From: Polytrichum commune
Lineage: Eukaryota > Streptophyta > Polytrichopsida > Polytrichales > Polytrichaceae
Direction: 5' to 3'
DNA length: 64,000 bases
Assembly (NCBI GenBank): GCA_950295325.1
Contig: OX485803.1
Coordinates: 498,001-562,000, forward strand
Numbering within the stretch: position 1 is the first letter of the stretch; the number at the start of each line of letters is the position of its first letter. The notes beneath the pieces are model-generated. The model saw only the letters and a program-made list of their open reading frames with translations, was not told the DNA's origin and did no database searches. This document shows, one piece after another, positions 1,722 through 56,716 of this stretch. The translations under genes and the position numbers were made by a program.

Positions 1722-2223
1722 CTGCCAATATAGTCATATATTGGTTAGTTAAAGGGACATGTAAATACGACTGTGATTATGACTGTCATTACGACTATGA
1801 TTGCGACTGTGATGGCGACTGTGATTATATAGTTCATATATGTCGGTGATGGCTACAATGACTAGTAGTTTTGTGTCATTCTGGACGTATTGTAATGCAC
1901 ACATGGTATTAATGGATGGGAGGCAGGAGCCTATACTCTTTACTATACTGCCACGTGACCATTCCTATAGTTCTTTTGTAGTCATTTCCATTTGTTGAAC
2001 ATGTCGTGTTCCAGACGTGCAGTACGCTAGGTTTAAGCATGTGGCCATGTGTATCCTAAACGACTATTCCGTTACTAGTCAATAACTACAGCCTGGTGAC
2101 ACGTGCACATGTTTATGCCATATGTGACCACATTGAGTCGTTCTTTACTCTTTCTTTAGTTGGACATGTCGTTGCATGTGAGGATACATGCAATAATCAA
2201 GTCAAAGCAGTTGGATCATTTAC
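1722..2223 (-). other. Intron of the TNP2 gene
   Basis: GT-AG intron (GTAAAT...GGCAG) between the TNP2 core exon and the DUF4218 exon. It contains a 'gactgtgattatgactgtcattacgac' simple repeat (about 1770-1820). No other gene is visible in it. Confidence 0.75.
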
Positions 2224-3966: not shown

Positions 3967-5354
3967 GTGCCCTGCAAGCTTGCCACTCTGCACAAGTTAA
4001 TGACTTTAATGTGTGGTCTCTAAACAGTGTTCCTTGCACTCATTCAATGGTGGTTCATCTGTCATTAATTGGTCGTTCACTAGTCACATACTAGTCGTTC
4101 ACGTGTACGCAGACAACATTCAACATGAACTGATCATTCACTAGTCATTCAGAAGTCATTCAGGTGCCATTCACTAGTCGTTCACTAGTCACTAACCTTG
4201 AATTTAAAGTAAGAGTGCGAATTTCAAATAAGCGGGAGTTTGGGGAATAAATAGTTCACATTCACAACTTCAGGAAGATGAGTGGTCATACTACAGGAAG
4301 CTCATGAAATATATCTCAAATCAGCGATGAAAACCTGATCGACATCAACACGTAACCATGCAGATTTGAAAACACTAGGATCTCAAGTGGTTTTGCTCAA
4401 AAATTGCATTACGTGAGTCCACACTACTCAAGAGTGAGCAAGAGCTGAGTGTTTATTTATTTTAGCCTACCTAGGACAAAGGCTACAATTAGGAACATGA
4501 CATAGAATGACTGACTAGCTACCTAAGGTACAGTGGGTGTTAAGTGGTTCAGTTAGATAAACATACTTTAAGTGTTTTTTACCATTAGTTGAACCAAACC
4601 AATCAGACCAGAGACAGAGCTTGTCAAAATTATCGGAGTCCTCATCCAGAATGCAAGCTTATTTTCACTTGAAGGTCCCAAGATGTTAAATAAAACAAGA
4701 CACAATTTTATTGCTCTAAAGCAGCAGATAGTATTGTCCACAGTTACCAAAGAGACCTGAAAAGGTTGCAATTCCAAATCACAGAAATGAAGCCTACTTT
4801 GTACACTGTGGGAAGCCAAGACCATGTTAGACTACCCTCATAATAGAGCCAAATGATCCTCCAAAGACTAAAGATGGCTATGCACATGTCTTAGGCCATA
4901 GATGTAAGTCATGGGTACCTACATATTTCATGAGCTCGTAAATGCTACTGTGATCAAGGGTTCGAATGTCACTAGTCATTCGCTAATCATAAACTAGTCA
5001 GTGTTAAGTAATTTAGTAGTCATTCACTAGTCAAAAAACATTTACTCGCCAGTCGGACGAAAGTCGCTATCTAGTCATTAATTAGTCGTTCTTCAAATTT
5101 GAACAATCTACGTATTCAAACCCTAGCGCCTGGAATTGTATCCGTTAGGTCCCCGTCCCTAAATACCTTGCCGACCATGGCCATGGCGTATTACACGTAT
5201 GGGCTGAAGGGAAAGGGCTCCAAGACTCAAGTGCAATCGAGAGCACATTGTGTAGTATCGCCTGGGAGGTAGAATGGGTGACTAACATTTTTGACGTATG
5301 TGTACAAAGTATAGAGGTAGTGAGTGTGAATCTGTCCACTTAAGCGCAAAAGGT
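3967..5354. promoter_or_regulatory. Divergent intergenic region between the two CACTA genes
   Basis: About 1.4 kb separates the minus-strand transposase start from the plus-strand gene start. It has two clusters of 'agtcattcactagtc' repeats (4065-4205 and 4970-5095) and no recognisable ORF. It would have to hold both promoters if the two genes are transcribed divergently; I see no convincing TATA box to assign. Confidence 0.4.
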
Positions 5355-11300: not shown

Positions 11301-13514
11301 TGTTGTTGTATCCAGCGTGTGATGGGTCATTCTGCAAGTGGTCAAATTATGTTTAAGAAAATGAATTGCCCTACACCTACCTGGTCCCTATTCTGGGTGT
11401 TTCAGTGTACACTTGCCTCTCTCATATATATCATACTAGCTTATTTTCACTAAACAATGTCTAATGGTAGGTTCTCTTTGTGTCATTGTGAGTATGAGTG
11501 ATTACGACTGTGGTGGGGGTATCTGTCAATGTTTAGTCATATTCTGTGCGTAGAGTCATTGTGTAGTTGTAATTCAATTTGTAAGAGTCATTCTTGTGTT
11601 GTATTGGTAGTTGTATTGAAGTAATTGTTGAGTTGTGTCTACCCCTAACTGGTGCCCATTCTAAGGCTGGTCGTTGGGGTTGGTGGCGTGCACAACAAGC
11701 TGTGTCAGGTAGGATGTCAGCACGCATGGCTGCTGTGGAGCAAACCCAAGCCGAGTTCAGGTCACAGTTGTCTGAGGTGTTGTTGACTAGCCACAACGAT
11801 GAGCAGGCTTTGAAAGCTTGCACCAACAAGTTGGACAACCTAGCTACAATGGTGGCGAACATAATGAACAAGTTGGAGTCCATGCCCATTGTGAGCGAGC
11901 CCAACCCGACATTCAACAACAGGGACGTGCATGGAGGCGTACCGAAATCCACGTGCGAGAATCAAGCCCAATCCCGTCCGACTCGCATTGGAACATCCAT
12001 GACGTTGCCAATAGATGTGGAGGATAACACGGACGATCGATTTGAAGATGTGACCCCTCCCAAAGACTACACGAGGTTGACACGGAGCAAAGATGCTAAA
12101 TTAAAGGGGGTTACCGTGTCGCAAGACAACAGTCAGGTGGGGAGTAAGGGACGTGCAAGCGAGAAGGCACCGAAAAAAGGGAGGGTAGCAAAGGGAGGTG
12201 TAAAGAAGCTGGCTGCAACGACGGCAGCCACTGGGCAGCCAATAAGTGCAGACGAAGGGAGGCCGGAAGTGGGGGTTGTCATTGGTGTGGTTCCAGAACA
12301 TGGCAGCATCTCTCCCAAGACAGTAGTGGATGGCAGCGGGGTGGAAGATGGTGGAGAGGGAGGGAATAAGGAAAGCGGGACTAGGGGGTTGGTAGATGTG
12401 GAGGGTGGGATAGGGGAGGGTGTCAGTGGTGTAGATGGGAGTTTGGAAGGAGGGAAAGGGCGGTTGCATAGAGGGGAGAGTGACCCTGTAGAGGGCGGGG
12501 ATGGGGATGTGGGAGTGTTAGCAGAGGCTGCATCCCTTGTTGAATCGCATGGGAAGGTCATCTCTCCAAAATCTGGGAGCCCAAACCCCCCCACCATGTC
12601 ACCAAGCAAGATAGGTGACATTGGTGGTTCACACAGTGCGTCGGCTGGTCAGGTGAGCCCGCCGCATAGTGTTCTTCATTCGTCGATAGCCGAGATCAAC
12701 AATCCTACCAAATTGTTGATTTTTAATGTGCATGGCACACTTCTGGACACTAGCCTATTAATCCAACCAAATCCAAATTGTGCCATTCGTGTGACGAAAA
12801 AAACTCCGACACGATGGTTCGTGTTCAGGCCATGGATGATGGAGTTTTTGGGCCATTGTTTTAAGAAGTTAAAAATAGCATTTTGGGGTATAAAGTCCAG
12901 TGAGTATATGTCAGAGGTTCTACGGGAGATCCTACCAGTGTTCGCTCATTTGGATGGCCACTCACCAGTTTTCACGTGGTCAGGAAAGGAATGGAGTTAT
13001 TTGAAAAGAGTGAGGATGTTTCAATGTGGGTGAAACCTTTGACAAAGGTTTGGAAGGCATGGCCATGTTGGGATGCTACCAACACTGTAATTATAGACCA
13101 CCATGAGCCTAGGGTGGAGTGCAACCCACCGTCGAATGTGATCATCCCCCCCCCCCCGATTCTATGTTACAAGTATGAAGGATTTAAGTGAGGACAAAGA
13201 TTATTTAAAAAACATGTTATGGCCAGCTCTTGAAGGCCTCTATCTGCACGAGGACGTTGGAACCTTTTTGTCTACTTACAATGTATCCAAACTGCAAGCA
13301 AGGGTGTGTGAACAGACTCAAATTTCGGGGAACATGGCAGACTCAATGGTGCAGGTTCCAGGAGGTGAGGGGAGTTGTGAACTTGAAGTTCACAATGCAC
13401 ATTGTCCCCCCTCCATTTAGTTGGTTGATGACTAATTGTCCTTGGATATTGCTTGCATGTGTATCAGGTTCCCGGGATGGAATTGCGGGGAAGGGGCGCG
13501 AAAACAAGGGATAG
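5355..13514 (+). CDS. Ptta/En-Spm (Transposase_24-type) gene with C-terminal NIF-like domain
   Basis: Second gene of the CACTA element, the likely DNA-binding TNPA-like partner. Exons inferred from splice sites and phase: 5355-5470 (starts MEEDNGDPDCRCPYEQERDK), 8408-8592, 9741-9853, 10066-10860, 10984-11067, and 11666 to about 13370, with a possible last piece to 13514. Exon 4 has a Met/Trp/Pro-rich stretch (repeats of PWMMGQQ), a basic coiled segment, and the family signature: GFKNAVKRQMKTDRSK, WFLGGKKECPVY, EPDQWARLCDYWSKPE. Exon 6 has a coiled coil (VEQTQAEFRSQLSEVL), a long Gly/Ser/Glu linker and a NIF-like domain. Frameshifts occur between about 12975 and 13030 and at a 12-13-base C run (13146-13158), so this copy may be dead. 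Exon borders are inference; the family call is firm. Confidence 0.75.
5471..8407 (+). other. Long first intron of the plus-strand CACTA gene
   Basis: Begins at donor GTAAGT (5471) and ends at acceptor ctgcag (8407). It contains two AAACCCTAA-like telobox clusters (about 6480-6560), one copy of the 145-bp direct repeat (7988-8138), and no coding stretch I can support. Its base composition is AT-rich and plain. Confidence 0.55.
7988..8138 (+). repeat. About 150-bp direct repeat, copy A
   Basis: Nearly identical to 14651-14803, starting ggatga(t/a)ttcttgtttttg and running through 'cgtgtttcatatcggattag' to 'gaagcacagtgagctt'. Copy A lies in the long intron and copy B downstream of the same gene, both within the CACTA element. 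No terminal inverted repeats were seen. Confidence 0.85.
9275..9440 (+). repeat. 'agtcattcactagtc' cluster in intron 2
   Basis: Seven or more degenerate copies of cagtcattcactagtca lie just upstream of exon 3 of the plus-strand CACTA gene. Same word as the other CACTA short repeats. Confidence 0.75.
12700..13305 (+). other. NIF/FCP1 (CTD-phosphatase-like) domain captured in the CACTA gene
   Basis: The C-terminal part of the plus-strand CACTA gene resembles the NLI-interacting-factor/FCP1 haloacid-dehalogenase fold: KLLIFNVHGTLLDTS, RWFVFRPWMMEFLGHCF, IAFWGIKSSEYM, then one frame over VKPLTKVWKAWP, NTVIIDHHEPR and NPPSNVI. Known active members need DxDGT and a later DDSP-type Asp. Here these read NVHGT and DHHEP, so the phosphotransfer aspartates are gone. 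The domain would be a non-catalytic, perhaps protein-binding, module. Capture from a host gene is inferred. Two frameshifts fall inside or next to the domain. Confidence 0.7.
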
Positions 13515-26838: not shown

Positions 26839-27325
26839 CACCGTAGGTATCAACAAATTGTTCATCACCCATTCATATATGACGAGGCGGATAAGTGCAT
26901 TAATCTTCATGATTAGGCTAATTATGACCAAATTATAGTTACGGACGTGTTTGTGCGAGTATGTGTAGTATGACTCTGATTTGCATTTTCATTAATCACA
27001 AAATGGCCATTGTGTTGTGTGTGCATTTGACATTTTTGCCTTATACCCATCTCCCCCATGTGTTTAAAAAACTTTGTTGTGATAATTCCTCTTAAATCAA
27101 AATGATAATAAGATAGATAGAAACTCCGGTCCCTTTTAGGGGCCGGCGTGAATGGAGTGTCCGTTCGTAATGCTAACAACCCGATGCCCACAAGACATGG
27201 GGAAGCTGGGACAAAACTACTCTCCTCTTTCGAGGATGGACACTATAGTAACCGAGAGACAAATAACGTGGGCCGATCATGGCCCACGGCGATGCATGCC
27301 TTTTAGGTATAATTAGTGTTTTTGT
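26839..27325. other. No recognised gene
   Basis: About 490 bp with no supportable coding or RNA gene. Confidence 0.5.
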
Positions 27326-27329
27326 TATG

Positions 27330-27535
27330 AGAGTGAACGCCAAGTCATGATTCCTCGGTTGGTTGCGGGAGGATGTTTGAGTTAAGACGTTCCGGGTTCG
27401 ATTTCAGTCGAGTCCGTATGATCGTCTAAAATGTAACGCGTGACTTGGTGCTGCAAGTGAGTAAAAGGCAGGAAATTTGTACCAACCAACCAGCACCAAT
27501 CCCTCATTCTGAGCTGTAAATAGATACTAAATATT
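27330..27535 (+). repeat. Possible SINE-like sequence with a pol III B-box
   Basis: GGGTTCGATTTC at about 27390 fits a tRNA B-box, with a weak A-box-like TGGTTGCGGGA about 35 bp upstream. The block is bracketed by inverted words gccaagtcatg (about 27332) and cgtgacttggtgc (about 27433). There is no full tRNA cloverleaf. It lies next to the 3' end of the large LINE, which could be chance or a shared 3' tail. Confidence 0.3.
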
Positions 27536-27553
27536 ATATAAGTTTTTTGGGTT

Positions 27554-30500
27554 TTATGGAGGGTCTAAGTTTTGGGGGAGCGGTTGGTGGTTTTCAATTC
27601 TCCTCTTATGGAGGAGGATGGACATGGCATATTGTATTGCAATGGTATTAATGTTTTTAAAGGTATTTTTGATGGTAACCAGGGGTATTTTGAGATTTTC
27701 TTCTAGTATTTCCATAGATGGGATGTGGGCCGTAGCTCGGGCCCCAGCTGTGATGACAATAAGTGGTTTGATTTTCCATCCTCTTGAAGCGATACTATCA
27801 ATCAAAGGTTTGTATTTGTTGTTTTTTGCTTCTATTGTTTCTGGGGAAAATCTGTCGTTACAATATGTGAATTCAATAAATTGTATGGTGAGGTTAGGGT
27901 CAATGTCAATGGGAGGGTCATTTTGATATGGTAATCCTTTAACGCAGAGTATATCAGGTCGAAATCTTGCGTTGCAATGACATCTTTGTGTGTTACATGT
28001 GCAGGGGAGTAGCCAATTGGAGACTGTATTTTCTTGGGGGTTATTATTGAAGGTACCGGCATTCATGAGAGTAAAACATCGGGATTTTTCGGACGAGATT
28101 AGAAGCTTCCTAATTTCTCCGACTGCTTTGTTATGTCTTTTAATTCGTAGTGAGTGTATATGTTGTTGGTTGCATTTCAGTAGAACATGTAGCCAAGTGT
28201 CTGGATCGTTTGAATTGCATATAGGGCATGTGATAGAGGGGTACCTCTGGTGACCGAAGAACATTTGTTTTCTAGCATTACCCATGTATGTTCCCGTGCG
28301 GAATTTAATAAGGCATGATTTTTGTTTGTCTGTGATTAAGGGATTTGTCCAGAATTCGTTGGACAATTCTTTGTCAATGTCTATATTTTCTGTCCATTTA
28401 CACGTGTTGGGGGTTTGTGTGGCCATGATTGCTATATTGGTTTCCCTATCATATTTTTTAATTTGTTTTTCTAAGAATCTTACTGGGCCTTTGTCTGGGA
28501 CGTCTGCCATCGAGGCCCGGACGTCCTTTTGGTAATAGTAAGGGATGGCATGGGCATGTTCGTATGGGTGGATGGCAATTCTGTGTTCTAATTCTAACCC
28601 GTCTTTTGCTAGTTTATCCGCTTTTTCATTACCGTCAATGTTGACGTGTGCTCTGACTTTGTATAGTGTGATTGGCTGTGTACGGTCTTGGAGGATTTTT
28701 ACCATGGAGTTGAGTGTGGTTTGGTCGGGGTGACTATTATGGAGAGTGGGGTGTTTGATTTGTGTGTTGAGTAGGTATAATACGTTTAGACTGTCTGTGA
28801 ATATGAATGCGGGTTCATTAGGGAATTTTGTATTGATGATTCTTAGTGTTTTGTGTATAGCCATCATTTCTGCACGTAGTATGTTTTGATGCCCATGGAG
28901 TCTTTTGGCGATATTTAAGCCTTTGGGGCTATAGATACCGTATCCAGCTCTTTCTCTTCTCCATACCCCAGGGGCAATTTCTTTGGGTTTTATAAAGGAT
29001 CCGTCTGTGTAGTAGCTAAATTGGGGGTGGAATTTTAGTGGTAAGTTAGTTTGGTAGTTTGGAAGTTGTGGGGTGGGGATATTATTGTGTAGGGGTGTGT
29101 TTGGGTAGTTTGATTTAGCCCATTTTTTACTAGGGTTAACGGTGATGTTTGGAGGGGTGGGTGGTGCAGTTTGTGTGTGACTTTGTAGTATTTGGAGGTT
29201 ATTTGCTGTGTCGCTTATTAATTTCATTTGTTCGTAGGTGCCTATATTATTGTTTTGGTGATGGATACAAAATATTTGCATGGTAGATGGTTCTTTTCTT
29301 GTGATATTGAGTTTGGAGGGTATTGTGGGTTCCTCATACGTGATCGTATCAGCGGCGAAATGGGCAATGACATGTGTGTCTGGGAATGGGCCTGTGTGTG
29401 GGTTGGAGTTTTGGTACCAATTAGTATCCGGAGATATAAGTATAGTGATTGTATATGGATCATTTTGGGCCGCTATGCGCGCCCAGTGAATAGCTTGTTG
29501 TAGGTCTGTTGTATTGTGGGGGTGTGCGTAACCGATTCCTTGCCATTTATGGTCAAACGCTTTACCTAGGGATCCAAATATTATGTCTCGCGAGAATGGT
29601 GAGTAGAATTGGGTGAATTGTGTGGGGCATGTAACTAGGCATGAAAAATATGAGTGGTTAATATTGAATGTTGTAATCAGGAGATCTAATATTTGGGTTG
29701 GTATTGTATATTGGGCTCGTTTGAGTGGGTCATTTTTTGGGATAAAGTATTTGTACCTTTGGTATAACCAAACAATTTCAGTTTCGAACGATTGGGTAGA
29801 TGGTTCTAGACCGTGTGTATTGTTTTTTGCCAATTGGTATTGTTTCCATAGCCATGTTAGTCTAGCTTTCGGGATGGTAATGAGGTATCGGCCATTGTCT
29901 TCGTATATGTGAGCGATATCGAATTGTGTTTGGATGGTATCAGAGTTTGTTTCGATGTCGTTTTCTGGGTTGCATTCATTAATAGAGATATGTGCTAGTG
30001 GAATTATTGTGGTTGGTGTGACGTATCCTGTGTCTCTATGTTGTTCTGTGGAGAAGTAGGCATTAATTATGTTTGAAAAATGTTTGTGTTGTCTTTCTTT
30101 GTAGTAATGGATAAGTAGGTTTGTGTTGTGCTTACATGTGTTGGCTTCACAGTAGGGGTATAGGTCCCTTTGAGTTCGCCATTTGTTATATGTGTTGTTA
30201 TTTGTTGTAGTCCATTGACATAAGTACGACGTGACTGTTCTTTTTATTCCACTATGGTCATTGGATTGCTTTTGTTTATGATCGATTATTTTGTGTATGG
30301 GGAATTGTCGGGGGTCTTTAAGCATGTTGTTGGGAGGAGGGGGTAGAGGGGGGATGGGGAGGTTAGGGGGGTGTACGGGGGCGGTTGGTGGGTGTGGTAG
30401 GATATTGTGGTGTCTTATTATATATTTATTTTTAAGGGATCTTGGTGGATGGTGTTGTTGGCATGGTAGGGGGCATTGATTACAAGGGGGGTGGCAAAAT

Positions 30501-30688
30501 AATTGATTAGCTATGTTAAGTGCGCTTTTGATAAGTTTAGAAGGAGTGGAGTGGTAGATTTTGAATTCGTCCGGGTTCATTAGAATGGTACCATTAGGCA
30601 TGGTAATTTGGTCTAGTGTGATTATATTATGTATAAGTAGTTTGTGTAGTAATTTAAGTGAGGTGTTGGGATTTAGGCCATGAAGCAT
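27554..30688 (-). CDS. LINE ORF2 C-terminal part: RNase H, CCHC finger and restriction-like endonuclease
   Basis: An uninterrupted 1044-codon frame. Residues 1-340 are a Pro/His-rich linker with Cys clusters (CHPPCNQCPLPC). Residues about 345-450 hold a block (FYSPFSRDIIFGSLGKAF, GIGYAHPHN, AIHWARIAAQ) like a degenerate methyltransferase. Residues 558-700 are RNase H with all four acidic residues (YYTDGS, LRAEMMAI, FTDSLN, GNEKADKLAKDG). Residues 821-852 are a CCHC finger (CPICNSND..H....C) followed by RIKRHN. Residues 909-965 show the restriction-like core RPDI, IQFIEFTYCND and EAKNNKYKPL. Finger, RHN and RPD-E-K(Y) together match the R2/Dualen endonuclease. The first Met is only the first after a TAG that splits ORF2, so this is not a natural start. 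Confidence 0.88.
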   Translation of the reverse strand: MLHGLNPNTSLKLLHKLLIHNIITLDQITMPNGTILMNPDEFKIYHSTPSKLIKSALNIANQLFCHPPCNQCPLPCQQHHPPRSLKNKYIIRHHNILPHPPTAPVHPPNLPIPPLPPPPNNMLKDPRQFPIHKIIDHKQKQSNDHSGIKRTVTSYLCQWTTTNNNTYNKWRTQRDLYPYCEANTCKHNTNLLIHYYKERQHKHFSNIINAYFSTEQHRDTGYVTPTTIIPLAHISINECNPENDIETNSDTIQTQFDIAHIYEDNGRYLITIPKARLTWLWKQYQLAKNNTHGLEPSTQSFETEIVWLYQRYKYFIPKNDPLKRAQYTIPTQILDLLITTFNINHSYFSCLVTCPTQFTQFYSPFSRDIIFGSLGKAFDHKWQGIGYAHPHNTTDLQQAIHWARIAAQNDPYTITILISPDTNWYQNSNPHTGPFPDTHVIAHFAADTITYEEPTIPSKLNITRKEPSTMQIFCIHHQNNNIGTYEQMKLISDTANNLQILQSHTQTAPPTPPNITVNPSKKWAKSNYPNTPLHNNIPTPQLPNYQTNLPLKFHPQFSYYTDGSFIKPKEIAPGVWRRERAGYGIYSPKGLNIAKRLHGHQNILRAEMMAIHKTLRIINTKFPNEPAFIFTDSLNVLYLLNTQIKHPTLHNSHPDQTTLNSMVKILQDRTQPITLYKVRAHVNIDGNEKADKLAKDGLELEHRIAIHPYEHAHAIPYYYQKDVRASMADVPDKGPVRFLEKQIKKYDRETNIAIMATQTPNTCKWTENIDIDKELSNEFWTNPLITDKQKSCLIKFRTGTYMGNARKQMFFGHQRYPSITCPICNSNDPDTWLHVLLKCNQQHIHSLRIKRHNKAVGEIRKLLISSEKSRCFTLMNAGTFNNNPQENTVSNWLLPCTCNTQRCHCNARFRPDILCVKGLPYQNDPPIDIDPNLTIQFIEFTYCNDRFSPETIEAKNNKYKPLIDSIASRGWKIKPLIVITAGARATAHIPSMEILEENLKIPLVTIKNTFKNINTIAIQYAMSILLHKRRIENHQPLPQNLDPP

Positions 30689-30697
30689 TTGTGCTTC

Positions 30698-32454
30698 CTA
30701 CATCCATGCAGTTTCAAGTGGGGATGGGGTTAGTAGGAAATTGTTTATTGTACTTTTTAGGTGGACTCCGGCTTTATGTTTGAGCAAGAATAATGTTCTA
30801 GTGATGGGTGATCTAACACAGTGGTGGTATTTAATGCGGGTGATTTCCTTAGAGCCCCCATATTTGGCGAGTATGAATTGAAGTAGACCAACATATATTT
30901 TCCCAATTCTACTTTTATCATTGAGGGCGTTTTGTAGTTGTTCTCCAATGCATCTTAAATAGGCATTTTGTAGTGAGAATGCTTTGATTCCGAATAGATT
31001 GTGTGGGAGTTGTGTAGCGATGTTAGATGTGCATTTGGGTATTCCGCATATCGTTTTGTCAAGTGCTATGATTTTTTTATCGAGTTTTTTGATAGCTGGT
31101 ATGGAGTATGGCACTGCGTTGAAGCTGTATGCTATTCCAGCACGTATGACTGTAGCTGCCATGCTTATTTTTTATTTCATAGTAGCTGGGCATGTTACAA
31201 AGGCTTGACACTGTTTTATTACTTTAGCTGTAGTGGTATTTATTTGTGTTTTCCATTTGAATGATGGTGCAAGATTTATTCCTAGATACGTGTATGGTTC
31301 ATGTTGGTTTAAGACTGGTATAGGTTGGTTTCTGTAGTTGATATTGGTAGATTGGATTAGGGCTTTAAAGGTTGTGGGGTGAAGTTTGGATTTGTTTGGG
31401 CATCCAGTTATTGCGCATTTGGGTATTCCAAGATCCATTCCTGCCCATTCGCAGAATTTGTCTAGTTTGTTGAGTTGTGTTTGTAGTGTCTCTAGTTTAT
31501 TGGCGATTGCTGCTAGGTCATCTACATATGCTGCTGATGAGATTTTAATTTTAGATGTACCAAAAGTGTATCCATTATTCCCTTGTTGTAGCCATCTAAG
31601 GAGGGGTTCTAGGAATATGATAAATAGATATGGGCTAAGGGTATCACCTTGTATTGTACCTCTTTGAATGGGGATTGGTAAGGTTTTACCGAAGTGTTCA
31701 CCAGTAAATATTGTTGAGGATTGTGAATATATGTTTCCTATGAAATTTATGGAGTCAGTGGGATATCCGAGATCTTTCATTATGGCTAAAAGTCTGGCAT
31801 GATCAATAAAGCCGAAGGCGTTTTTGAAGTCAATGTAAAAGATATATATATCTTGGTTCGTGAGTCTTGCGTCTTCAAGCGCTGCGATTAATAATTGGAT
31901 TTGTCTAGAAGTATTTCTCTCTGCTCTGAACCCTTCTTGACTATCGTGTAATATTTGGTATTTTTCTCCATACGCTGATAGGATAGAAGTTAATGTACTC
32001 GTGTAAAATTTATATATGGTGTTAGCTAGTGCAATAGGTCTATGGTTTGTTAGTTGTGATGGGTTACATTTTTTGTATAGTAAAACTGTTAGACTGGTTT
32101 TCTATGATGCAGGGATTTTTTTTTGTTTATAACAATGTTTAAAAAATAAAAAGAATAATTTATGGAAGCGTGGAGGCATGTTTTTTAGAATTGAATTGGG
32201 TATTTTGTCTGGGCCTGGGGCTTTGTTATTACTTAGGTTTTTAAGACAAAAGTCATATATTTCTTGGTCAAAATACGTGTGTAGGGGGGTTGGGGTTCTC
32301 CTCGTTTATCAATGATGTATCCGTGTAAGTCATGCCATGGATATTGCCGGACTCCACATGTGTAGTGTAGTGGGTGTGTATTTTGATATTGGCATGTGGG
32401 AACTGTAGGACGGTTACTGATGGATTGTTGCGTATATATTTTTGCTGCGATGTC
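30698..32454 (-). pseudogene. LINE ORF2: reverse transcriptase region
   Basis: RT motifs run in order on the minus strand: NNKAPGPDKIPNSIL (about 32230), LTNHRPIALANTIYK, SQEGFRAERNTSRQIQ (about 31930), YIFYIDFKNAFGFIDHA (about 31830), RGTIQGDTLSPYLFIIFLE (about 31650) and AYVDDLAAIAN (about 31520). The active-site YVDD is conserved. Breaks: a one-base shift at the G6 run (32284-32289), TAG at 32102-32104, TAA at 31172-31174 and TAG at 30698-30700. The thumb follows (NHRYYC-type spacing is not clear). It is closely similar to the RT relic at 62860-63330. Confidence 0.9.
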
Positions 32455-34356
32455 TTATGGGTTAGTTAATATATTGTTTTGTCTATCAATGATGGAGTCC
32501 AGGGGTGAGGTTTCAGTGTTCTTGAAGACTTTTCGATTTATCTTTTTGGGGTTTTTTTCATACATTTGACGGTATTTTGATACGGCCTTTAGAATGCAGT
32601 CTTTGGTGTATTTTGTGGTGATTTTCCTGGCTTCTTTATTTTCATTTTTTACGATGGTTGCTATGGCATCAAACCATTCAGTAGGAGGTGCCGTTATAAC
32701 AGGTGGGTGTGGAATGTTTGTGTGTTGGTGGTTTCGTATATCGTTTAGGATGGGGCGTGCTTGCCAGAGTGGATCATGTTGTGCAATGTATATGGTTTTC
32801 CTAATGATGTGATATGTGTTGAGGTGTCTTTTCCATTTTCTCGCAAGTTTACGTGGCAAAAACCCACCTTGTTGTGATGTTCTGTTCGTAAGGTTGGGTA
32901 GTGGGTCTGCTTTACAGGTTTCTTCAATTGTTTCTGAGATTTTGTATACAATGTGGTCGAATGTTGTACAGGCTTCCGTCCATTGATCCGGGCTTAAGTG
33001 TTGGTGGTTTTCGAGTAGGGTGGTAAGGCCTTTTATTTGTGCAGAGTTTTCTTCGAAGAATGTTATGTTGAATTTTTCGATATTTTCTGGTGGTATTGGG
33101 TTTAGTATTCTAGTTGGTGACGTGTTTGTTGGGGGTGGGAATCTGGCTATAAGGGTGTTGTGGGGGATATGTAGTACAACTGGATAATGGTCTGAATTTA
33201 GATTCATGTTTGTGTTTGTGGTAGAAATGAATTTGCTGTTGTCTGGTGAGTGAATGTAGAATCCATCTATTAGATTTGTTGATGTGTAATTATAGCCTCC
33301 TTGTCTGGAGATGCTAGTGTTAGTTGGGATATATTCTAGGTTGAGTGATGCGGTGAAAATTTTCCATTGGTAATCTTCTTCTTGTGGAGGGGTGTTAATG
33401 TTGTTATTTTGTCTGCCTCTAAGTGCGATATCTCGGTTAAAGTCACCAGATAATGTATACATATGATTGGGGTGTATAGTGATTTCGTTAGTGATTTCGT
33501 TCTTAAGGTGTGGAATGAGGCTTGTGTCTTCTAAGTGTGTAGGCATGTACATGTGTATGATTAGCCAAGGTATTAGTGGATGGTTGTTTATTTTAATTAT
33601 TTGTAAGTATGGGGATATATTTACTGGCGTGGGAATTTTGGTGATATTCCCAGGGAATGCATATTTCTTGTGGATAAGTGTGAATAAACCTCCTCTTCCG
33701 GTGGTGTAAGGCATTCTTTGTTGTATGCATCTTGTGAGTACATGTGTGTTGTTGAAAATGAATTTAAATTCCGGAAATAGGTTTTGTATGTATTTTGTAG
33801 ATTTATTTGCAGTTAGTTTGGTTTCTTGGATATGTATGATTGCTGTGTTGTTTAGCGAGTTGTTTATTAGGCTTTGTAGGTTTGGTAATGATGTGTTGAG
33901 TGATGACGCGTTCTATGTTATTATGTTTGTTTCGTGCTCGGTGTCGGTGTTAATTCTTGGGGTTGGTGTGGGAGTAGCTGGGGGTGTGGGTGGGTGTGAA
34001 TATTCGTTGATGCTTTCTAGGCATCTGAGTGCTTCGGTGATTAATTGATTTGGGAGGAAGGAAAATTTATTTTGAAGGGTGATTGGTGTTGGTGTAGTAT
34101 CTTGGTTGTGGATACATTCATATATCTCTGTGTGTATTGAATTTTTTGGGTATATTATATCTTGATTATTTTCTACAAATGTTGTATAGGGGTGAGGTGT
34201 TGATATATGCCTTTCGGGGGGGTTGGTGAGGTTGGCCAGTCTGATAATCAATGTGTTCGTCCATATGTTATTAAAGTGGTAATTTTGGGGTTGGGCTAGT
34301 ATGTTATTGCATGTGTCTATTGAGGGGTGGATGGTGATGATTAGAGCGTATAGCAT
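32455..34356 (-). pseudogene. LINE ORF2: APE-type (EEP) endonuclease region
   Basis: Two open stretches (34356-33913 and 33714-32455) lie in one frame, interrupted by a TAG at 33913-33915. The EEP fold motifs appear in order: IIHIQETKL (about 33830), GRGGLFTLI (33690), SGDFNRDI (about 33435) and SDHYPVVLHIP (about 33185). These are the metal-binding and catalytic signatures of AP-endonuclease-like LINE nickases. The stretch then runs into the linker before RT and hits TAA at 32455-32457. Because catalytic residues look intact, the breaks are probably recent. Confidence 0.85.
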
Positions 34357-34499
34357 ATGGGTTAGTGGTGATTGCCTTTGTGTTTGAATATATTGATGTA
34401 GATGCGGGTAGGTGGTTATTGCTTGAGGATGTAGTGGGTGTATGTTTTTTAGTATGAGGGCAAATGTGTTTGCTATGTGTTGGTATTCAGGTTGTAGTT

Positions 34500-35294
34500 T
34501 TATAGTGTGTTCGGAATGAAGTAGATGTTGGCTCTTTTTTTGTGTGTAGCAGGGTGTGTATGTAGGATGTTAGGCATTGGTCCGGGGTTGGGTTCTATGT
34601 CCCCGCATTTTAGCAATTCTAGTTTGTTAATAAAGTAGTATCCGTGGGAATGGAGTGTTTTTGGATTTTTCATGTTTGTTTTTAGATGTATTATGATTGT
34701 GAACTTGGTTGTAATAAAGAGGTTAGGTATAGCGGGTATGATGTTTTCTATTTGTTTGGGTGAGAAGTGTGAGTTTGTATTTTTTATAGATTTTTGGCTT
34801 GTTATTGAGTTAGGTCTCCAGTTATTTATGAAGTGGTATGTGTTATTAATTGTGTGGCGAGGCCGGTAGGCCGAGGCCATTGTATCTTTTGGGTGAGGTT
34901 GGTATTTTGAATGAGGGTTTAATAGGTGTTTGAAATAGGGTTTGTGATGGTGTTTGATGTTGAGGTGAGGTTTATTTAAGGTGAGTAGTTTATATTTACT
35001 TTTTGTAAATAGATTAGGTAAGGCAATTATTGTTTTTTGTGTAGTTTTTGGGAGGTAGTGTATAGGTTTAGTATGTTGGTGGGTAGGCTTTGTGGTTGTG
35101 TTAATGATGGGCTTGAGGGAGTGGTAGTGTATATATCTTGTTAGTTTTATCTTGTGGCGAGGCCGGTAGGCCGAGGCCATATTGTGTACTTTGTTGTATT
35201 GGGTAGGGTATTGTTGTATTGTGAGTAAATAGATTTGTTTTTGTGAGGTGTTGGGGGGGTTTTCTTTGTGAATTTTTGAAGTTATAGTATTCAT
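34500..35294 (-). pseudogene. LINE ORF2 N-terminal region with repeats and a 2A-like motif
   Basis: Open frame reaching 35399 (first ATG at 35294). It contains two ~100-residue repeats, each opening MASAYRPRH (DNA copies at 35153-35180 and 34853-34880, exactly 300 bp apart) and sharing an 'IxxLPNLF.T/K' core. Then LELLKCGDIEPNPGP ends at about 34578. D-I-E-x-N-P-G-P is the 2A consensus, which makes ribosomes skip the final Gly-Pro bond, and LL-x-x-GD just before it also fits. In an active copy this would release the N-terminal segment from the enzymatic polyprotein. The frame ends at 34500, but shifting one base at the T7 run (34535-34541) continues it into the next block. Confidence 0.7.
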
Positions 35295-35873
35295 GAATAC
35301 TATAGGCAGAATTTTATTTTTAGTATATATTAATAATTTAATTATGTTTTTGTTTTTAGTATATAAATATACTATAAGTAATTTATAATTGTACACCACC
35401 GGGATGTTTGTCGAAATTAGTTTGTCAAGTCCATATTGTTTTCAATTTCCGATATATCCGGATGAGCCGCTTCGATAGCATCCAAGGTAATCTTCATTTG
35501 CCTTTGAAGGAGTTGCATTTGGAGCTTGGAATTCTTGTTTGACTCCGCTTGCACATGGTCGGCATAGACCTTTGTCTCTTGCACAATCTCACCTTTAAGG
35601 TTCACCATTTCCTTTCGTATTTCATCCGTCCCTTTTTTTACCGCTGCTTCTACCATCTTGTTGAGATCTTTGTTGGTGATGTTTTGGTGCGGTCCATTCT
35701 CCAGAGCTTGGATGGTGTTTGCAAGTGCAGTGTTCACGTCTGAAAATCCAAGTCTAGCTAGCTCTTCTTTACTAGGTGCATTTATCCCGTCTAGACTTTT
35801 TGGATGGGGGGTAAATTCAACATATTTACCAAGTATTTTTTCATTTTTCTTAACAAATTTCTTGTAGACAAAC

Positions 35874-37374
35874 CACGGGGAGGTCACTCAGTAGGATTTT
35901 TGTGTACCACGTGCGGCGGAGGGGTATTTGTTTAGGGGCTATTTACCTCCAAGGCACGAATTAAAAGCTCCCTATAATTACATAATATTCTAAAATGGCT
36001 TATTTTTTTGTACCCTACCATTACTTATAATGCCCATGTCATTGAAATTTTTTGTAGTCTATATTCCTTTTAATTAAAAAATTTGAATTTAAGAATGTAT
36101 GCAATGCAAAAGTGATGGGAAAAGCATGGCAACAAAAAAAATATAAAAATTACGTAGCATTGCAAAAACCAAGTACAAAAACTTAAAGTGAAAATACAAA
36201 AAGAAGACTTAGGCTGGAACACAACATGATTGAGTGTGTGTTTACAAACACAACAAGATTGTGTGTGTGTTCACAAACACAACACCCGCTCCATAAAAAT
36301 CATTTATTCAAAATCACTTTACATGCTAGTGAAGACCAAAACCATATAGTGTGAAACACTTTAAGCTTGGTCATGAATCTTATATAGTTTGTTATGTCAC
36401 AAACTTGGACAGTTGCTCTGAATCATTCCTATCAAGAGTGTACACCTCATTTGTAGAATTGTAGCTCATGGTTACCGTAGATATAATGCAATCTACATCA
36501 ATCCATTTGCTATCCGTGTGATCATTCTTAAATTTGTTACGGCCTGGATATTTTCTATAATATTGCAACATTACTTCGATGTGGGGATTATTAGGATTTC
36601 TCCTCCCTGATTCCTCTGTTCGAGCAAGGAGGTCAACCGCTTGCCTAAGTACTCCAAATTGTTTCCCATTGCGCCGCCGCATAGCCTGCACCCTACCCAC
36701 CCACCATGAACTGGAATCTACTCCGTTCAATATGTTAGTAGCATTTCTAGCTTTAACATCAGTCATTGAACGTCCCCTTTTTCGTTTGGCAACGGATTTT
36801 ACAGTTGACAATAGCATTGTTGTGCTCCGTTGGACAAAATGCACCCCACAATCAGATCCTATAGATAACAAACTTGATCCACATGAAGATCTTGCTTGGA
36901 GACAATTATCATGGTTGTTGAAATGAATACTATGTATAATTCTTGCTAATCTATCTTTGGATAGAAAAACATTACCATTGAGTTGCGAGACAAACGTTGA
37001 CTTGTAAATGGAATGCCCATCAACTTCTACGGTTGGCAAAAAATTTCCGGTTCTTTGTATTGAGGCTTCCAATTTCATCCATTTTTGGATGAATGATGAG
37101 TAATTTTTCATCCATCCCTCATGAGGCATGCGTACGAAATTGATTCTACTAAACATATATCCTAAGATCCTTATTTTCAACCCCTATATTATTTTTACTA
37201 AAAGGGAATGGCCCATATTTTATACCTATCTATTTTACTTGTAATGGGCTTATGTACTTTTAATGGACCCTTTATTATTTGGAATTCTTTTATAATTTTT
37301 ATGTCAAATGATTTTAATCCTCCCTATATTATGCCGCACGTCGTTTTTAAAATGCACTAAGTGACCTCCCCGTG
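35874..37374. mobile_element. hAT-like non-autonomous element (1501 bp) inside LINE ORF1
   Basis: Perfect 8-bp duplication AGACAAAC (35866-35873 and 37375-37382). Terminal inverted repeats start CACGGGGAGGTCACT and extend, with small gaps, to the shared 'gcatttttgtgcaccacgtgcggc' / 'gccgcacgtcgtttttaaaatgc' blocks (about 40 bp). Eight-base duplications and CA..TG ends fit hAT elements. The subterminal 150 bp match the 560-bp element at 43500-44059, so both belong to one family. No transposase is encoded; the interior carries an unrelated ORF (36392-37180). Confidence 0.9.
36392..37180 (-). CDS. Unknown ORF carried by the hAT-like element (possible gene capture)
   Basis: A 262-codon frame within the 1501-bp element and absent from its 560-bp relative. 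Notable parts: TVEVDGHSIYKSTFVSQLNG, LSKDRLARIIHSIHFNN, a basic patch (SVAKRKRGRSMTD), a Trp-rich VDSSSWWVGRVQAM, and a C-terminus (YYRKYPGRNKF, TMSYNSTNEVYTL) shared with the fragment at 25916-26131. I do not recognise a family. A long frame with a relative elsewhere suggests captured host coding sequence rather than random DNA; it is not a transposase I can identify. Confidence 0.5.
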   Translation of the reverse strand: MKIRILGYMFSRINFVRMPHEGWMKNYSSFIQKWMKLEASIQRTGNFLPTVEVDGHSIYKSTFVSQLNGNVFLSKDRLARIIHSIHFNNHDNCLQARSSCGSSLLSIGSDCGVHFVQRSTTMLLSTVKSVAKRKRGRSMTDVKARNATNILNGVDSSSWWVGRVQAMRRRNGKQFGVLRQAVDLLARTEESGRRNPNNPHIEVMLQYYRKYPGRNKFKNDHTDSKWIDVDCIISTVTMSYNSTNEVYTLDRNDSEQLSKFVT

Positions 37375-38307
37375 AGACAAACGAGTTGAGGCATTGGACA
37401 TTGCATGAGCCCGTATGCTTCCCGTTCTCAAGTCTAAAGTAAGAACCGAGAACATTTAGTTCTCCCATGCATTTTCGGATTCCTTCTTCGATTTGCATGG
37501 TTGTTTTTACCTTATTGAGGTTACGGGCAATTAGAATGAGTGCATTCTTTCGGGCTTTATCGTCTTCTGAGAGTTTTTCGTTATTTGCAAAGTTTACATC
37601 TACTATTTCATTAAAAAATGAAAGTTTGAGTGCTTTAATTCTTTTGGCTTCCTCTGGAGAGGGTGCTTTAATCCAAGCAAACTCTGCATCCGCCGATTTT
37701 TGCACATTCGTTATTTCAAAGTCAAGGCCTCGTCGAAATCCATCCCCAACTATTTCTACAAACAAATCATACCATTCTTTACCCTTGATTGACTGGGTTG
37801 TGACTTTGACGGAGAGCATGGATGCAATTGCAATGGTATCAAAGGATTTACACACTTTGCCTATAGCATGTGTAAATCGGCCAAGCTTGAGGATGAAAGG
37901 CCTCAATCCACAGAGAAGGCCATATCCATCCATTTCAAGGTTTTTAAGGTGGAGTTTAATAATTCCACTCCATCTTTTGGTCCTATGAAAACAAAGGACA
38001 GCTATGGGCTCTCCTAGGACTTCCCCGACCTCTATCCTCATTGTTTTTAGTCTATCCTTTGTTAAGTTGAGTATCACATCTCTATCCAATTCTATTCTTT
38101 CAATTTCGAAATGGATAGATATGTGATAGTCCAAAGCAAATCCATGGTCACCTACTTCCACATCTGAAGGAATCTGGGTGAGATTGTAGTGCATTCCCTC
38201 CTTACCATCCGTTCGTTTAGAAGGCCACTCGTCTTGGGCAACGAACGGAAAGGAGGGAGATGACTCCACCATTTCATGTGCTTCAGACTCACACATACCG
38301 TTTTTGA

Positions 38308-39120
38308 CTAATCAGTGAAAGAAGGTGTTTGAATGAGAGGCATGTTGGCAAATTTTGCAATTGTGTTCATAGCTTGAAAACCAAGCCAATATGGGGGGCG
38401 TGTTCTCTCAGTGGGTGCTATTCCTTTAACCTTCTTTTGACTTGACAATACCACAGCAAGCACTGGACGTTTTCCACTTGTAGAATCTATATTTTCAAAC
38501 AACTTACGGGATGATGAGGTTGGAGTGATGGTTCCCATTCTGATATAAGCAAAGCAAACAAATGTTTTGTACTTTAGTTTTGAATGAGGTATACTTCTTA
38601 TTTTCTTTCCTCTAATTCCTTTCCACAAATTAAGTTGTGGGCCTCCTAGGAATTGAGAGTGAAAGAAGAAGTGGTTTGCATGTTCTAACATCATATGAGT
38701 ATTAGTATGAGTACAACTTGCATTCATCCTATGATAACACCTTTTCCTATTCATATGAATCTTCATATTAGTATTTACAAATTGGTTGTAAGTGCTCTTA
38801 TGTAGATTGTGATTTGTCACAACTCTAACATTCCATACATCTCCTAAGCATTTGAGGCAAGTATAACTAAAAGCACAAGCATCTACCATTACTATCATGG
38901 GTCCATTATTTCTAATGGAACATTCATTTATGATATGAGCATTAAGGTTGTTATACCATACCTTTGGATTTATGTTGTTCTTATATGTGTTTTTAAAGCA
39001 AGAGTTTGTAAGGCATTCCCATGTGGTGTGAGAGTTGACACTATGAGAGTATATCCAGTATGGTGTGGCTAGTACTAGCCACATAATGATAACAAGGTAG
39101 GTTGCATATGCAACCTTCAT
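38308..39120 (-). CDS. Hypothetical protein with N-terminal membrane segment
   Basis: A 270-codon frame beginning MKVAYATYLVIIMWLVLATP, a hydrophobic start typical of a signal peptide or membrane anchor, followed by a Cys/His/Asn-rich middle (about ten Cys) and a basic C-terminus with RTRPPYWLGFQAMN. It ends 11 bases before the ATG of LINE ORF1, in another frame, on the same strand. I recognise no family. It may be an extra leading ORF of the LINE or an unrelated gene fragment next to which the LINE inserted. Confidence that it is coding rests only on length. Confidence 0.35.
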   Translation of the reverse strand: MKVAYATYLVIIMWLVLATPYWIYSHSVNSHTTWECLTNSCFKNTYKNNINPKVWYNNLNAHIINECSIRNNGPMIVMVDACAFSYTCLKCLGDVWNVRVVTNHNLHKSTYNQFVNTNMKIHMNRKRCYHRMNASCTHTNTHMMLEHANHFFFHSQFLGGPQLNLWKGIRGKKIRSIPHSKLKYKTFVCFAYIRMGTITPTSSSRKLFENIDSTSGKRPVLAVVLSSQKKVKGIAPTERTRPPYWLGFQAMNTIAKFANMPLIQTPSFTD

Positions 39121-39399
39121 TTTGCTTACTATCCTAACAACCTATCAATGCTATGATGTGTCTAAGACTATGTGTGTGCCTATGTGCAAATAATGAGAAA
39201 ACAAATTAACGTGTAAACTTACCAAGCGGATGAAGGGCAGCAAAACGACAGTCAGCAACAGCTCCAGCAGCAATACTTCGCCTTCAATCTCCTTGATGTC
39301 CCAACACCTTCTTTTCTTCCCTGGTAGACAGCTAGCAGATGATTGAGGCAGGTGCTTCACGGTACAGTGTTCGTACAGCAATCTCTTGATTTTGGTGTA

Positions 39400-39860
39400 G
39401 CTCCGGCAGCTTCCGAGTGATCCTAGCTCTTAGCAGTGTTGTATTGCAGCTACCAGTAGCTTCTCGGTCAACGTGCACCGACTTCGAATCAGCAGCAGCT
39501 TCTTCTCTCCAATCAGCTTCTTCTCTCTCCAATCGGCAGCTACTTTCTTCAATCAGCAGTTTCTTTCTTCAATTAGCAGCTTCTTCTCTCTTTAATCAGC
39601 TTCTTCTCTCTTCGATCACCAGCTCCTATCTTCAATCGGCAGCTTCTCACTTTGAATCAGTGGTTTCTTTCTTCGAGTCAGCAGCTACTTTCTACGAATC
39701 AGCAGTCACTTGCTTCAAAACAACAGCTTTTCCTTCAGGTCAACAACTTCTTTCTTCAAGTAGCTTCTTTTTTGGGACAACAACTTTTTCAAAGTTTCTT
39801 CTTTGAATCAGCAGGTTTTCTACAGCAACTCTTCTCGTATTCAAAAATACCTCTGTCTAG
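39400..39860 (+). repeat. Degenerate 'cagcagcttcttctctcttcaat' minisatellite
   Basis: About 15 imperfect units of 22-30 bp alternating cagcag(c/t)t and cttctttcttc(a/g)a. Short frames on either strand across it are low-complexity (Ser/Gln-rich) and not credible genes. Confidence 0.75.
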
Positions 39861-40021
39861 TCGGCGACAGGTAGGTAGTTCACACCGCTCTCTCTAGTTT
39901 TTCGGAGCTAGGATCGATGGCTAGGCGGTTCTAAAGGTACTTGGTTTTGTGGGTTCCCTACAGTTTCTTCCAATGTCTGGACTTACAACTCTTGGGTACC
40001 ACTGTATATACTAGAGAGATT

Positions 40022-40590
40022 TTGGTCACTAGATCCCTCAGAAATTTGACACAAAGCTCCTACAGAAGCCACGATTTGTAATACTAAGATCTCAACCTTG
40101 TTTACTAGCAATCTAAATAACAATATGTTTCGGAGTCTAATCAGTAGGTTTCAGCGTATGTTTCCGGTGGCGGCAGATGTTTCAGAGATTTCAGCACAAA
40201 TCTTCTACAGAAGCCAGGACTTGCAGCACTAAGATCTCAACCTTGTTTCACTAGCAATCTTGATAACAATATGTTTCGGAGCCTAATCAGTAGGTTTCGG
40301 TGTATGGTGGCGGCAGATTTCACAGAAATTTCGACACTATTATTCTACATATCAGGGCTTGCAACACTAGAATCTCAACTTTGTTTCGGCCTTGATAACA
40401 GTATGTTTCGGAGCCTAATCAGTAGATTTCGGTGTATGTTTCGGGTGGCGGCAACTCTCTAAGAAATTTCGACACAAATCTCCTACAGGAGCTAACTTTT
40501 GCGACAGACGACAGCTCTCAACCTTGTTTCATTAACAACCTTGATAGCAGTATGTTTCAGAGCCTAGTAGGTTTCAGAGTAAGTTTTTAC
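40022..40590 (+). repeat. Tandem repeat, about 135-bp units, four copies
   Basis: Units share 'cagaaatttgacacaaa(t)ct(c)ctacag', 'actaagatctcaaccttgttt', 'gataacaatatgtttcggag' and 'cctaatcagtaggtttcgg'. Copies start near 40022, 40170, 40310 and 40450. No coding potential; it lies upstream of the minus-strand ORF/LINE block. Confidence 0.85.
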
Positions 40591-54355: not shown

Positions 54356-54485
54356 AAAATCAGAATTAATTCTTCACTCAGCTTAGTGGAATCTGTTTGT
54401 TCTGCTTTTTTGGTTACTATAATGTGCTTTGGTTACTGAAATTGTGTATAATTTTCTTATATGAAATGTGGGCTTAGAATTAGGA

Positions 54486-56716
54486 ATGGCAAAACGACAA
54501 AGGTCCTTAAAGGAACATTTTTTGACCACTCCTCGAAATATTGATATAGATGATTTAGCATCTGAAACATGTGCATTGGATGATTTACGATCTTCTGAAG
54601 TTCCAAATGCACAAGGTATATGGAAAGACCAATGGTATAGCCAATTTGATTGGCTAGATTTTTCTCCCGATTCGGGAAGAGTGTGTTGTAAAATTTGCAA
54701 GGAGAAGGGTGGACGTTTGGTATATGCCAAGGAGGGATCCAAAAATCTAAAGGTAAGTGCATTTCATGATCATGCATGTTCTAGTGAACATAAAAAAATT
54801 TGTTGGGTTTTACAAAGTGGTGGCAAAGTGGAGAAGGCGATCAAACAAGGGCAACGTGCATGTGATGAATCATTGTCATCATTGTTTCGTGCTGCCTATT
54901 TTATAGGAAAGCAATCCCTCCCTTATGCAAAATTTCCTTCTTTGTGTTCATTGCTTGCTAGTGTAAAGGCTCCTATCACTGCATCTTTGTATTATGATGA
55001 AAAATCATGTGCTGATTTAATTTCAAGTATGTCTAATGTCATAAAAAAAAATTATATGTAGGGTTCGAAATTCTCCTTTCTATGGTATCATGATTGATGA
55101 ATCTACGGACATAAGTGTTACCGGTCATCTTGTTGTATTTGTCACAATTATAGAGGAAGGTGTGTCTTTGACTGTCTTTTTAGGTTTGTTAGAGATTGAG
55201 GGTGGAAAAAAAATGCTAATATTATTTTTGAATGTTTAGTCAATCACTTAAAGATTAAAGAACTTGATTTATGCAAGTGTATGGCATTTGGCAGTGATAG
55301 TGCAAGCACCATGGTGGGATCTCATGGTGGAGTAGCAATAAGATTGAAAAACAACCTAAACCCATTCATTTTGTCTTGTCATTGTGTTGCTCATAGGACT
55401 AATCTAGCGGCACTTGATGCATCTAAAGCATCAGATTACAAGGTAATATCCGATGAGGTTGATAATATTTTGAATGCAATTGCTTCATACTTTAATATGT
55501 CAAATAAGCGTAAACATGCACTCACAACCTTGCAAATAGTACTTTTTTATGCTAAAAAAACTATGAAACGGTATCATAAGATATGATGGCTTAGTAGGTG
55601 GCAAGCTGTGACTACCTTATGTGATTCATTAGAGTCTGTTTTGTGTTTTTTTCGTGATGTGAAAGACAAAAAAACCTTGGTCAAATGAAGGTTCTTTTTG
55701 CCAAGTTAAAACAATTTAAATACATATATATTTTATATTTTCTAGCTGATATCTTGCATTCCTTAGCATTGTTATCAAAGATTTTTCAAAACAAATTTGT
55801 GGATGTCAAAACTATTGGTAGTATTGTTAGAACCGAGATAGCACAAATTAGAATGTTGTTTATTGTTGAGCAAACTGATTTGAATGCTTCTACATTTAAC
55901 GAAAACACTAGCTATCATGTCATTCCCGAATATGGCCCTCTTGGGGGTCATCTTCGAAAGCTTTCAAGTGAAATTCATGGAAAAATGTATCACGGTTTTG
56001 AAATGGACCGGTCTAGATTAGGAGATGACCTTGAGGAAGCACTTAAATTCCAACGTGCCTTTGCGGAAGCTGTTTGTGCAGGCTTGGATGCCAGATTTGT
56101 AGACAATGATCTTATTTCATGTTTTAAAATCTTAAATCCTACTAATATGCCTTCAAAGCAGATAGGCCTCCAAAATTGGGGGGTGGTTGAATTGGAGAAA
56201 TTACTAGCACGCTATGGGCATGATCGCTCCCAAGAAGGTTCAAAATTTCCCCCCTTTGTTGATGTGATGGCTTGCAAGCGTGAATTTCTAGCTTTCAAAT
56301 TGCAAGCCACCACTGAATGGGGAGATAAGACTTGTAGAGATTTATGGGGCATGATCACATGGAATCATTCTTTGCAAACCCGATATCTTAATTTGCTTGT
56401 CCTTGTTGATTTGGCTAGAGTACAATGTGTATCGACATTCACTTGTGAAAGGGCATTTAGTGTCCAAAATTTAATAAAAACACGAGTGAGAAATAGACTT
56501 GGAAGTAAAAATTTGGAAGCTATGCTTAGAATTGCTTTAAAGGGACCAAATGAGAACTTTGATAATATTATTGAAGAGGCAATTCCTTTGTGGAAAAGTG
56601 GAACTAAATACCGGTTTTTATATGCTAATCCTTCACTTTATGTGTCTTCGGGAAGTGATGCATCTTGTTCAGTAAGTTCAACTATGTTTTCTAATTCTGA
56701 GGATACGGATATCTAA
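54486..56716 (+). pseudogene. hAT-family transposase (TTF zinc finger, DUF4371, dimerisation), decayed
   Basis: Start at ATG 54486 (MAKRQRSLKEHF). The N-terminal TTF/BED-like finger reads WYSQFDWLDFSP, VCCKICKEKGG and FHDHACSSEHKK. A DUF4371/RNase-H-like part follows with YGIMIDESTDIS (catalytic-type Asp-Glu, about 55085-55115), CMAFGSDSASTMVGSHGG and LSCHCVAHRTNLAA. The C-terminus has the hAT dimerisation motif STFTCERAFSVQNLIKTRV. The layout resembles ZNF862/KIAA1586-like plant hAT transposases. Frameshifts lie at A-runs near 55048 and 55208, a TGA interrupts WLSRW near 55585, and another shift occurs near 55685, so it is inactive. Terminal repeats and 8-bp duplication were not located. Confidence 0.88.

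Follow-up and report, generated by a model that had tools for sequence, protein, structure and literature searches.

A long interspersed element with an APE-type and a restriction-like endonuclease in the moss Polytrichum commune

The question raised by this locus is whether a single long interspersed element (LINE) carries both an apurinic/apyrimidinic-type endonuclease (APE) and a restriction-like endonuclease (RLE), or whether two elements lie nested in each other. The window analyzed is a 64,000-nucleotide stretch of the Polytrichum commune genome (contig OX485803.1, positions 498,001 to 562,000; G000:C1:498001-562000 in our numbering). The original prediction, made from the letters alone, had placed a minus-strand LINE with both enzymes, a reverse transcriptase (RT) and RNase H at 27540-38296. 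The element was located there, but it runs from about 27111 to at least 39328 (Table 1). It was deduced to be, very probably, a LINE with two open reading frames (ORF1 and ORF2) and a dual-endonuclease architecture of the Dualen type, with the domain roles proposed below. The dual-nuclease architecture was confirmed, the accessory module is new as far as was searched, and no description of this combination of domains was found.

ORF2 of the full-length copies and its two endonucleases

The major data were obtained from four further copies read from the genome assembly, c1, c2, c4 and c5, located on contigs C1, C2, C4 and C5. The subfamily A pair (c2 and c5) has 12.0 kb in common at 99.1% identity, with ORF2 frames of 2625 codons, and the subfamily B pair (c1 and c4) has 13.3 kb in common at 99.7%, with ORF2 frames of 2663 and 2924 codons. 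As judged by motif patterns, one unbroken ORF2 frame in all four copies holds the 2A-like site, APE, RT, RNase H, the CCHC finger, the RHN motif and RLE, as had been claimed for a single LINE protein. Repeats flanking the whole unit were found for c2 (12 letters) and for c1 (11 letters, with six extra bases ahead of the 5′ end); they were looked for and not found for c4, c5 and the window copy, so that two of five copies were positive.

It was considered that two LINEs, one APE-type and one RLE-type, might lie end to end and that the dual enzyme might be an insertion artefact, as the window copy is interrupted by a DNA transposon and also by stops and changes of frame. This explanation is exceedingly improbable and was rejected because ORF2 forms a single frame with every domain in the four copies, on four contigs, and because the repeats of c1 and c2 enclose the entire unit. 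APE and RT are also united within the single database proteins P0035, P0020 and P0024, while P0002 carries the stretch that follows the RT core together with the chromodomain-like, PCIF1-like, RNase H and RLE blocks. Nesting had been named in the original prediction as the finding that would overturn it, and the prediction withstood this check. Nor is the element a product of chance, since Pfam matches to RVT_1 and RNase_H were obtained, together with 44 genome matches and 19, 166 and 399 proteins in three protein-database searches (the best 120 being listed for each of the latter two). The genome matches came from a host-genome search with the last 1047 codons as query; of 7473 first-look candidates only 44 were scored, and these 44 matched. 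The element is probably autonomous.

From sequence and structural models, the predicted order of ORF2 is 2A-like motif, APE, RT, Cys cluster, chromodomain-like part, PCIF1-like part, RNase H, CCHC finger and R2-type RLE. All domains named in the original prediction are present, with the named motifs at the positions given in Table 1; the chromodomain-like and PCIF1-like parts, the 2A-like motif and the true 3′ end had been overlooked. The profile search of the ORF2 blocks that had been proposed as a check returned RVT_1 and RNase_H (Table 1), but the APE of the window copy gave a weak match (Exo_endo_phos_2, 0.0013) and that of the copy L024 none in Pfam. The assignment of APE is supported by the following data. 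The Pfam match exceeded the curated cut-off in all of eight hand-chosen relatives, and of the 78 listed family proteins (P0015 and P0020-P0096), many of them fragmentary, 37 have an APE family in their database annotation. A profile of 16 sequences matched exonuclease III (7.2e-5), and the catalytic columns were conserved for N (11/11), E (12/12), D and N of GDFN (16/16 each), and D (14/16) and H (16/16) of SDH. The element thus has both the N, E, D-N and D-H catalytic residues and the match to the endonuclease/exonuclease/phosphatase (EEP) family that define an APE LINE endonuclease. The RT motif reads YADD in c1, c2, c4 and c5 versus YVDD in the window copy. The four Cys columns of the cluster that follows were occupied in 10/11, 9/11, 10/10 and 9/10 of the sequences covering them, and RNase H was present in 14 of the 19 members of set A1.

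For RLE, the CCHC finger, RHN, the PD-(D/E)-K-Y series and the predicted R2 fold are all present, and D, E and K are conserved in relatives; the suggestion that the C-terminal block might be no nuclease was checked and failed on these grounds. The likeness to R2 appeared through fold comparison only. A PDB sequence search with the last ORF2 block matched RNase H alone, and the profile of alignment A5 matched RNase H-type chains and one globulin (1.4) in PDB, with no R2. Identity to the RLE of R2Bm, R2Tg and R2Pm was 16%, and a Cys cluster conserved ahead of the PD motif in the Polytrichum RLE is an apparent further difference.

Constraint was estimated as omega (dN/dS) between subfamily A and B copies; the two pairs used are almost identical to each other and amount to a single comparison. 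Values were 0.07-0.08 for APE, 0.06 for RT, 0.09 for the PCIF1-like part, 0.05 for RNase H, 0.09-0.10 for the finger plus RLE and 0.04 for the chromodomain-like part, the last with a high dS of 1.2-1.3; linkers reached 0.31. With close copies, open frames, two diverged subfamilies and both nucleases strongly constrained, the reason for keeping two nucleases becomes testable, as does a division of labour between them within one LINE.

PCIF1-like and chromodomain-like parts and a proposed mechanism

The domain ahead of RNase H was assigned the methyltransferase fold of PCIF1 from sequence and structural models. N6-adenine methyltransferases carry a (D/N)PP(Y/F) motif, which reads NPPF in PCIF1. 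This catalytic motif is lacking in the element domain, which differs from PCIF1 in having AHPH at that position (within 29513-29533) and in sitting in a retrotransposon protein. The four residues of AHPH were found in 23, 23, 24 and 22 of 24 sequences, respectively, aligned by a tool through FGSxG and then by eye. Marking of the element's RNA or cDNA by a catalytically active adenine methyltransferase, acting on RNA or DNA, would agree with the fold and with the low omega; it is nevertheless unlikely, given AHPH in place of (D/N)PP(Y/F). Without the usual catalytic motif, the part would most likely not methylate the element RNA but bind it at its capped 5′ end, or else bind the transcription machinery. 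In one scan of viral contigs, 27 pattern matches yielded no relative of this domain.

The chromodomain-like part has the three strands and C-terminal helix of that fold. Its Pfam Chromo score (15.5 bits) was below the curated cut-off (25.1), and the stretch alone gave no match among PDB sequences. By eye, two cage-like positions are F/Y in 12/13 and W in 14/14 sequences, while the third, as placed from HP1, is nonaromatic. Literal-term searches over mostly open papers turned up no LINE with a PCIF1-like or cap methyltransferase domain, and both parts are new for a LINE as far as the searches reach. Chromodomains are described in long terminal repeat (LTR) elements (PMC5348765, PMC6338049), and the chromoviruses and Chronos elements (PMC5348765) likewise join a retroelement protein to a chromodomain-like fold; those are LTR elements, whereas the part described here belongs to a LINE, in which RT precedes it and RNase H follows. 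Together, the two parts suggest that the LINE itself handles RNA cap and chromatin.

Target-primed reverse transcription is proposed as the copying route. The first strand would be nicked by APE or RLE, so that RT is primed at the (ATCT)n terminus of the RNA, and the second would be cut by the other nuclease or by the same one. RNase H would remove the template, and the chromodomain-like part may tether the complex to chromatin. A further reading goes beyond this and is less likely than not: that the element represents an undescribed LINE lineage widespread across land-plant genomes and the metagenomes containing them, with both nucleases retained so that each serves one strand, and with the recruitment of a chromatin reader and of a methyltransferase fold remodelled as a cap binder. 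If true, the machine could hold both RNA ends and the target simultaneously.

Relation to Dualen and other LINEs

Dualen/RandI LINEs of green algae were reportedly described by Kojima and Fujiwara in 2005. Dualen carries a cysteine protease domain and takes a position between the RLE and APE groups. The plant L1 and RTE LINEs have APE and RT in common with the Polytrichum element, and some have RNase H; they are not known to have an RLE, which the Polytrichum element has. A 2022 review gives L1 and RTE as the plant LINEs (PMC9033089). Dualen is defined as the LINE group with both nucleases (PMC4640811, PMC3636483), and LINEs with two nucleases are regarded as marking the changeover from RLE to APE elements (PMC4640811). 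The restriction to green algae made in the original prediction agrees with reports from Chlamydomonas relatives (PMC8226300) and with a 2015 list naming green algae alone (PMC4438587), but it is incomplete, as cryptophyte LINEs were labelled Dualen in 2025 (PMC12747079). Literal-term searches over mostly open papers found no dual-nuclease LINE from a land plant.

We lean toward the view that the element truly belongs to the Dualen/RandI clade and that only its accessory domains set it apart. Like Dualen/RandI, it combines APE, RLE and RT in one element, has the RNase H listed for Dualen (PMC4640811), and ends in a non-A repeat, as do eight of eight algal RandI families (PMC3747384). It appears to depart from Dualen, as compared through citing papers and general knowledge, in its chromodomain-like, PCIF1-like and 2A-like parts. 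Two points weigh against membership. The sequence comparison contained no Dualen reference sequence, and no cysteine protease was matched by Pfam, which could miss one, in ORF2 of L024 or in subfamily B ORF1.

A separate origin, in which an RLE-type LINE (R2/NeSL-like) gained APE and RNase H apart from Dualen, is less probable. In the APE-RT search, identity among the matches listed was at least 40% through P0096 and at most 31% thereafter, and the best listed match outside the family was P0097 (31%, 2.7e-42), in which R2/NeSL-type fingers and an RLE were seen by eye. Comparison of P0097 by hhalign gave an E value of 0.0076 and a probability of 5% in a single comparison, and the RLE profile did not match it at 1e-3, which speaks against this origin. 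The RT tree comprised 54 rows, including 11 of 17 family candidates and L024; 41 rows were labelled APE, several of them listing RVT_1 only, and there was one RLE-type and no known Dualen reference. The 12 family rows grouped together (100/100). P0097 and P0099 were placed nearest to them with moderate, unstarred support (89/90), in keeping with a separate origin, yet with a long branch (1.01) and in a tree without Dualen references. The position of Dualen between both groups also argues against a separate origin.

Insertion is dispersed, unlike that of R2, because the flanks beyond the tail differ among all 20 loci fetched, none of the 12 positions compared exceeding 0.59 bits. The strict target site of the R2 clade is thus lacking, which bears on clade rather than on nuclease fold. 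At loci L003-L011, L013, L015 and L016, an A-rich or TA microsatellite of highly variable length lies directly 3′ of the ORF2 stop.

The window copy and its surroundings

Table 1. Features of the LINE copy in the window, with motif positions
Feature	Positions	Strand	Basis	Motif positions
LINE copy, subfamily A	27111..39328	minus	blastn against full copies	
3′ untranslated region, ending in short (ATCT)n tail (2 units)	27111..27553	minus		
CCHC zinc finger, RHN, extra Cys cluster and R2-type RLE (PD-(D/E)XK)	27557..28228	minus	Alignment A5, column counts; AlphaFold2 model matching R2 structures	CCHC 28172-28228; RHN 28121-28138; RPD 27947-27967; E 27863-27883; K..KY 27803-27826
RNase H, D-E-D-H-D residues present	28595..29017	minus	Pfam 2.4e-13, column counts	Acidic residues and H 28604-29014
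PCIF1-like (cap adenosine methyltransferase fold) domain	29201..29947	minus		
Chromodomain-like fold	30080..30325	minus	Three strands and C-terminal helix	
Cys/His cluster, possible zinc knuckle	30449..30499	minus	Column counts	
RT	31271..32053	minus	Pfam RVT_1 2.9e-28	YVDD 31511-31531
APE/EEP endonuclease	33154..33912 (lower limit approximate)	minus	Pfam, exonuclease III profile, catalytic columns	QETK 33814-33831; GDFN 33430-33450; SDH 33181-33198
2A-like motif GDIEPNPGP near ORF2 N terminus	34578..34607	minus	Sequence and shift in constraint there	
ORF1 C-terminal part, cut off from remainder by DNA transposon	35417..35887	minus		
1.5-kb DNA transposon inside ORF1, foreign to LINE	35874..37374		Absent from c2	
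ORF1 upstream part, in two frames	37304..39141	minus		

The 3′ end was set where similarity to other copies stops, after the short tail, which has 2 to 7 units among 20 loci (L001-L020, L001 being the window copy). Similarity to c2 reaches the upper limit in Table 1, and the true 5′ end may sit further upstream, in a repeat-rich stretch. When set against c2, the ORF2 of the window copy changes frame twice, being spread over three frames, and contains five in-frame stops; its last block is open, as predicted, for 1047 codons rather than 1044. A special genetic code for the in-frame stops was rejected, other copies being open under the standard code. The foreign transposon has inverted ends and an 8-bp target duplication, read directly from its ends, and encloses an open frame of 263 codons (36392-37183, minus) that matched no Pfam family. 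An Rfam scan of window positions 26900-40500 at gathering scores gave no match.

ORF1 is open for 747 codons in c2 and c5. The ORF2 frames extend upstream of any likely start codon, and the protein probably starts near the 2A-like motif, because omega falls there from 0.53 upstream to between 0.04 and 0.31 downstream. The motif reads GDIKPNPGP in two subfamily B copies. Upstream of it, the window copy has two copies of a 27-28 bp repeat with GGCCTCGGCCTACCGGCC (34854-34880 and 35154-35180, minus). The 5′ halves of subfamilies A and B gave no DNA alignment, and ORF1 was 31% identical over 356 columns, whereas the ORF2 blocks beyond the 2A-like motif were 79-96% identical; this suggests fast change or an exchange of 5′ ends. 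In L023/L024 versus L003/L004 and upstream loci, ORF2 of A and B is close and the ORF1 frames span 747 versus up to 1400 codons.

Of the 407.8 Mb of the assembly, 406 Mb lie in seven contigs of 42-78 Mb, and seven is the proposed ancestral chromosome number of mosses in a 2026 review (PMC13120521). CCCTAAA arrays, indicating TTTAGGG telomeres, stand at three of the four large-contig starts read, the fourth being masked. Together with the plant-type transposons of the window, these features are consistent with a land-plant host, and the number of seven with a moss of the Polytrichaceae. The small contigs with L035 (G000:C10) and L037 (G000:C15) have GC contents of 0.68 and 0.61, respectively, look bacterial and are perhaps contamination. 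Elsewhere in the window, CACTA/En-Spm pieces lie at 1095-3996 and 9997-10887 (tnp2 Transposase_21, 4.4e-62; Transpos_assoc; DUF4218; Transposase_24 below cut-off). An open frame at 11585-13033 has an end like an NLI-interacting-factor phosphatase (2.3e-5) and is possibly a captured piece of a host gene, and pieces of a hAT transposase lie at 54465-56716 (zf-C17orf113, 1.4e-11; Dimer_Tnp_hAT, 1.5e-4).

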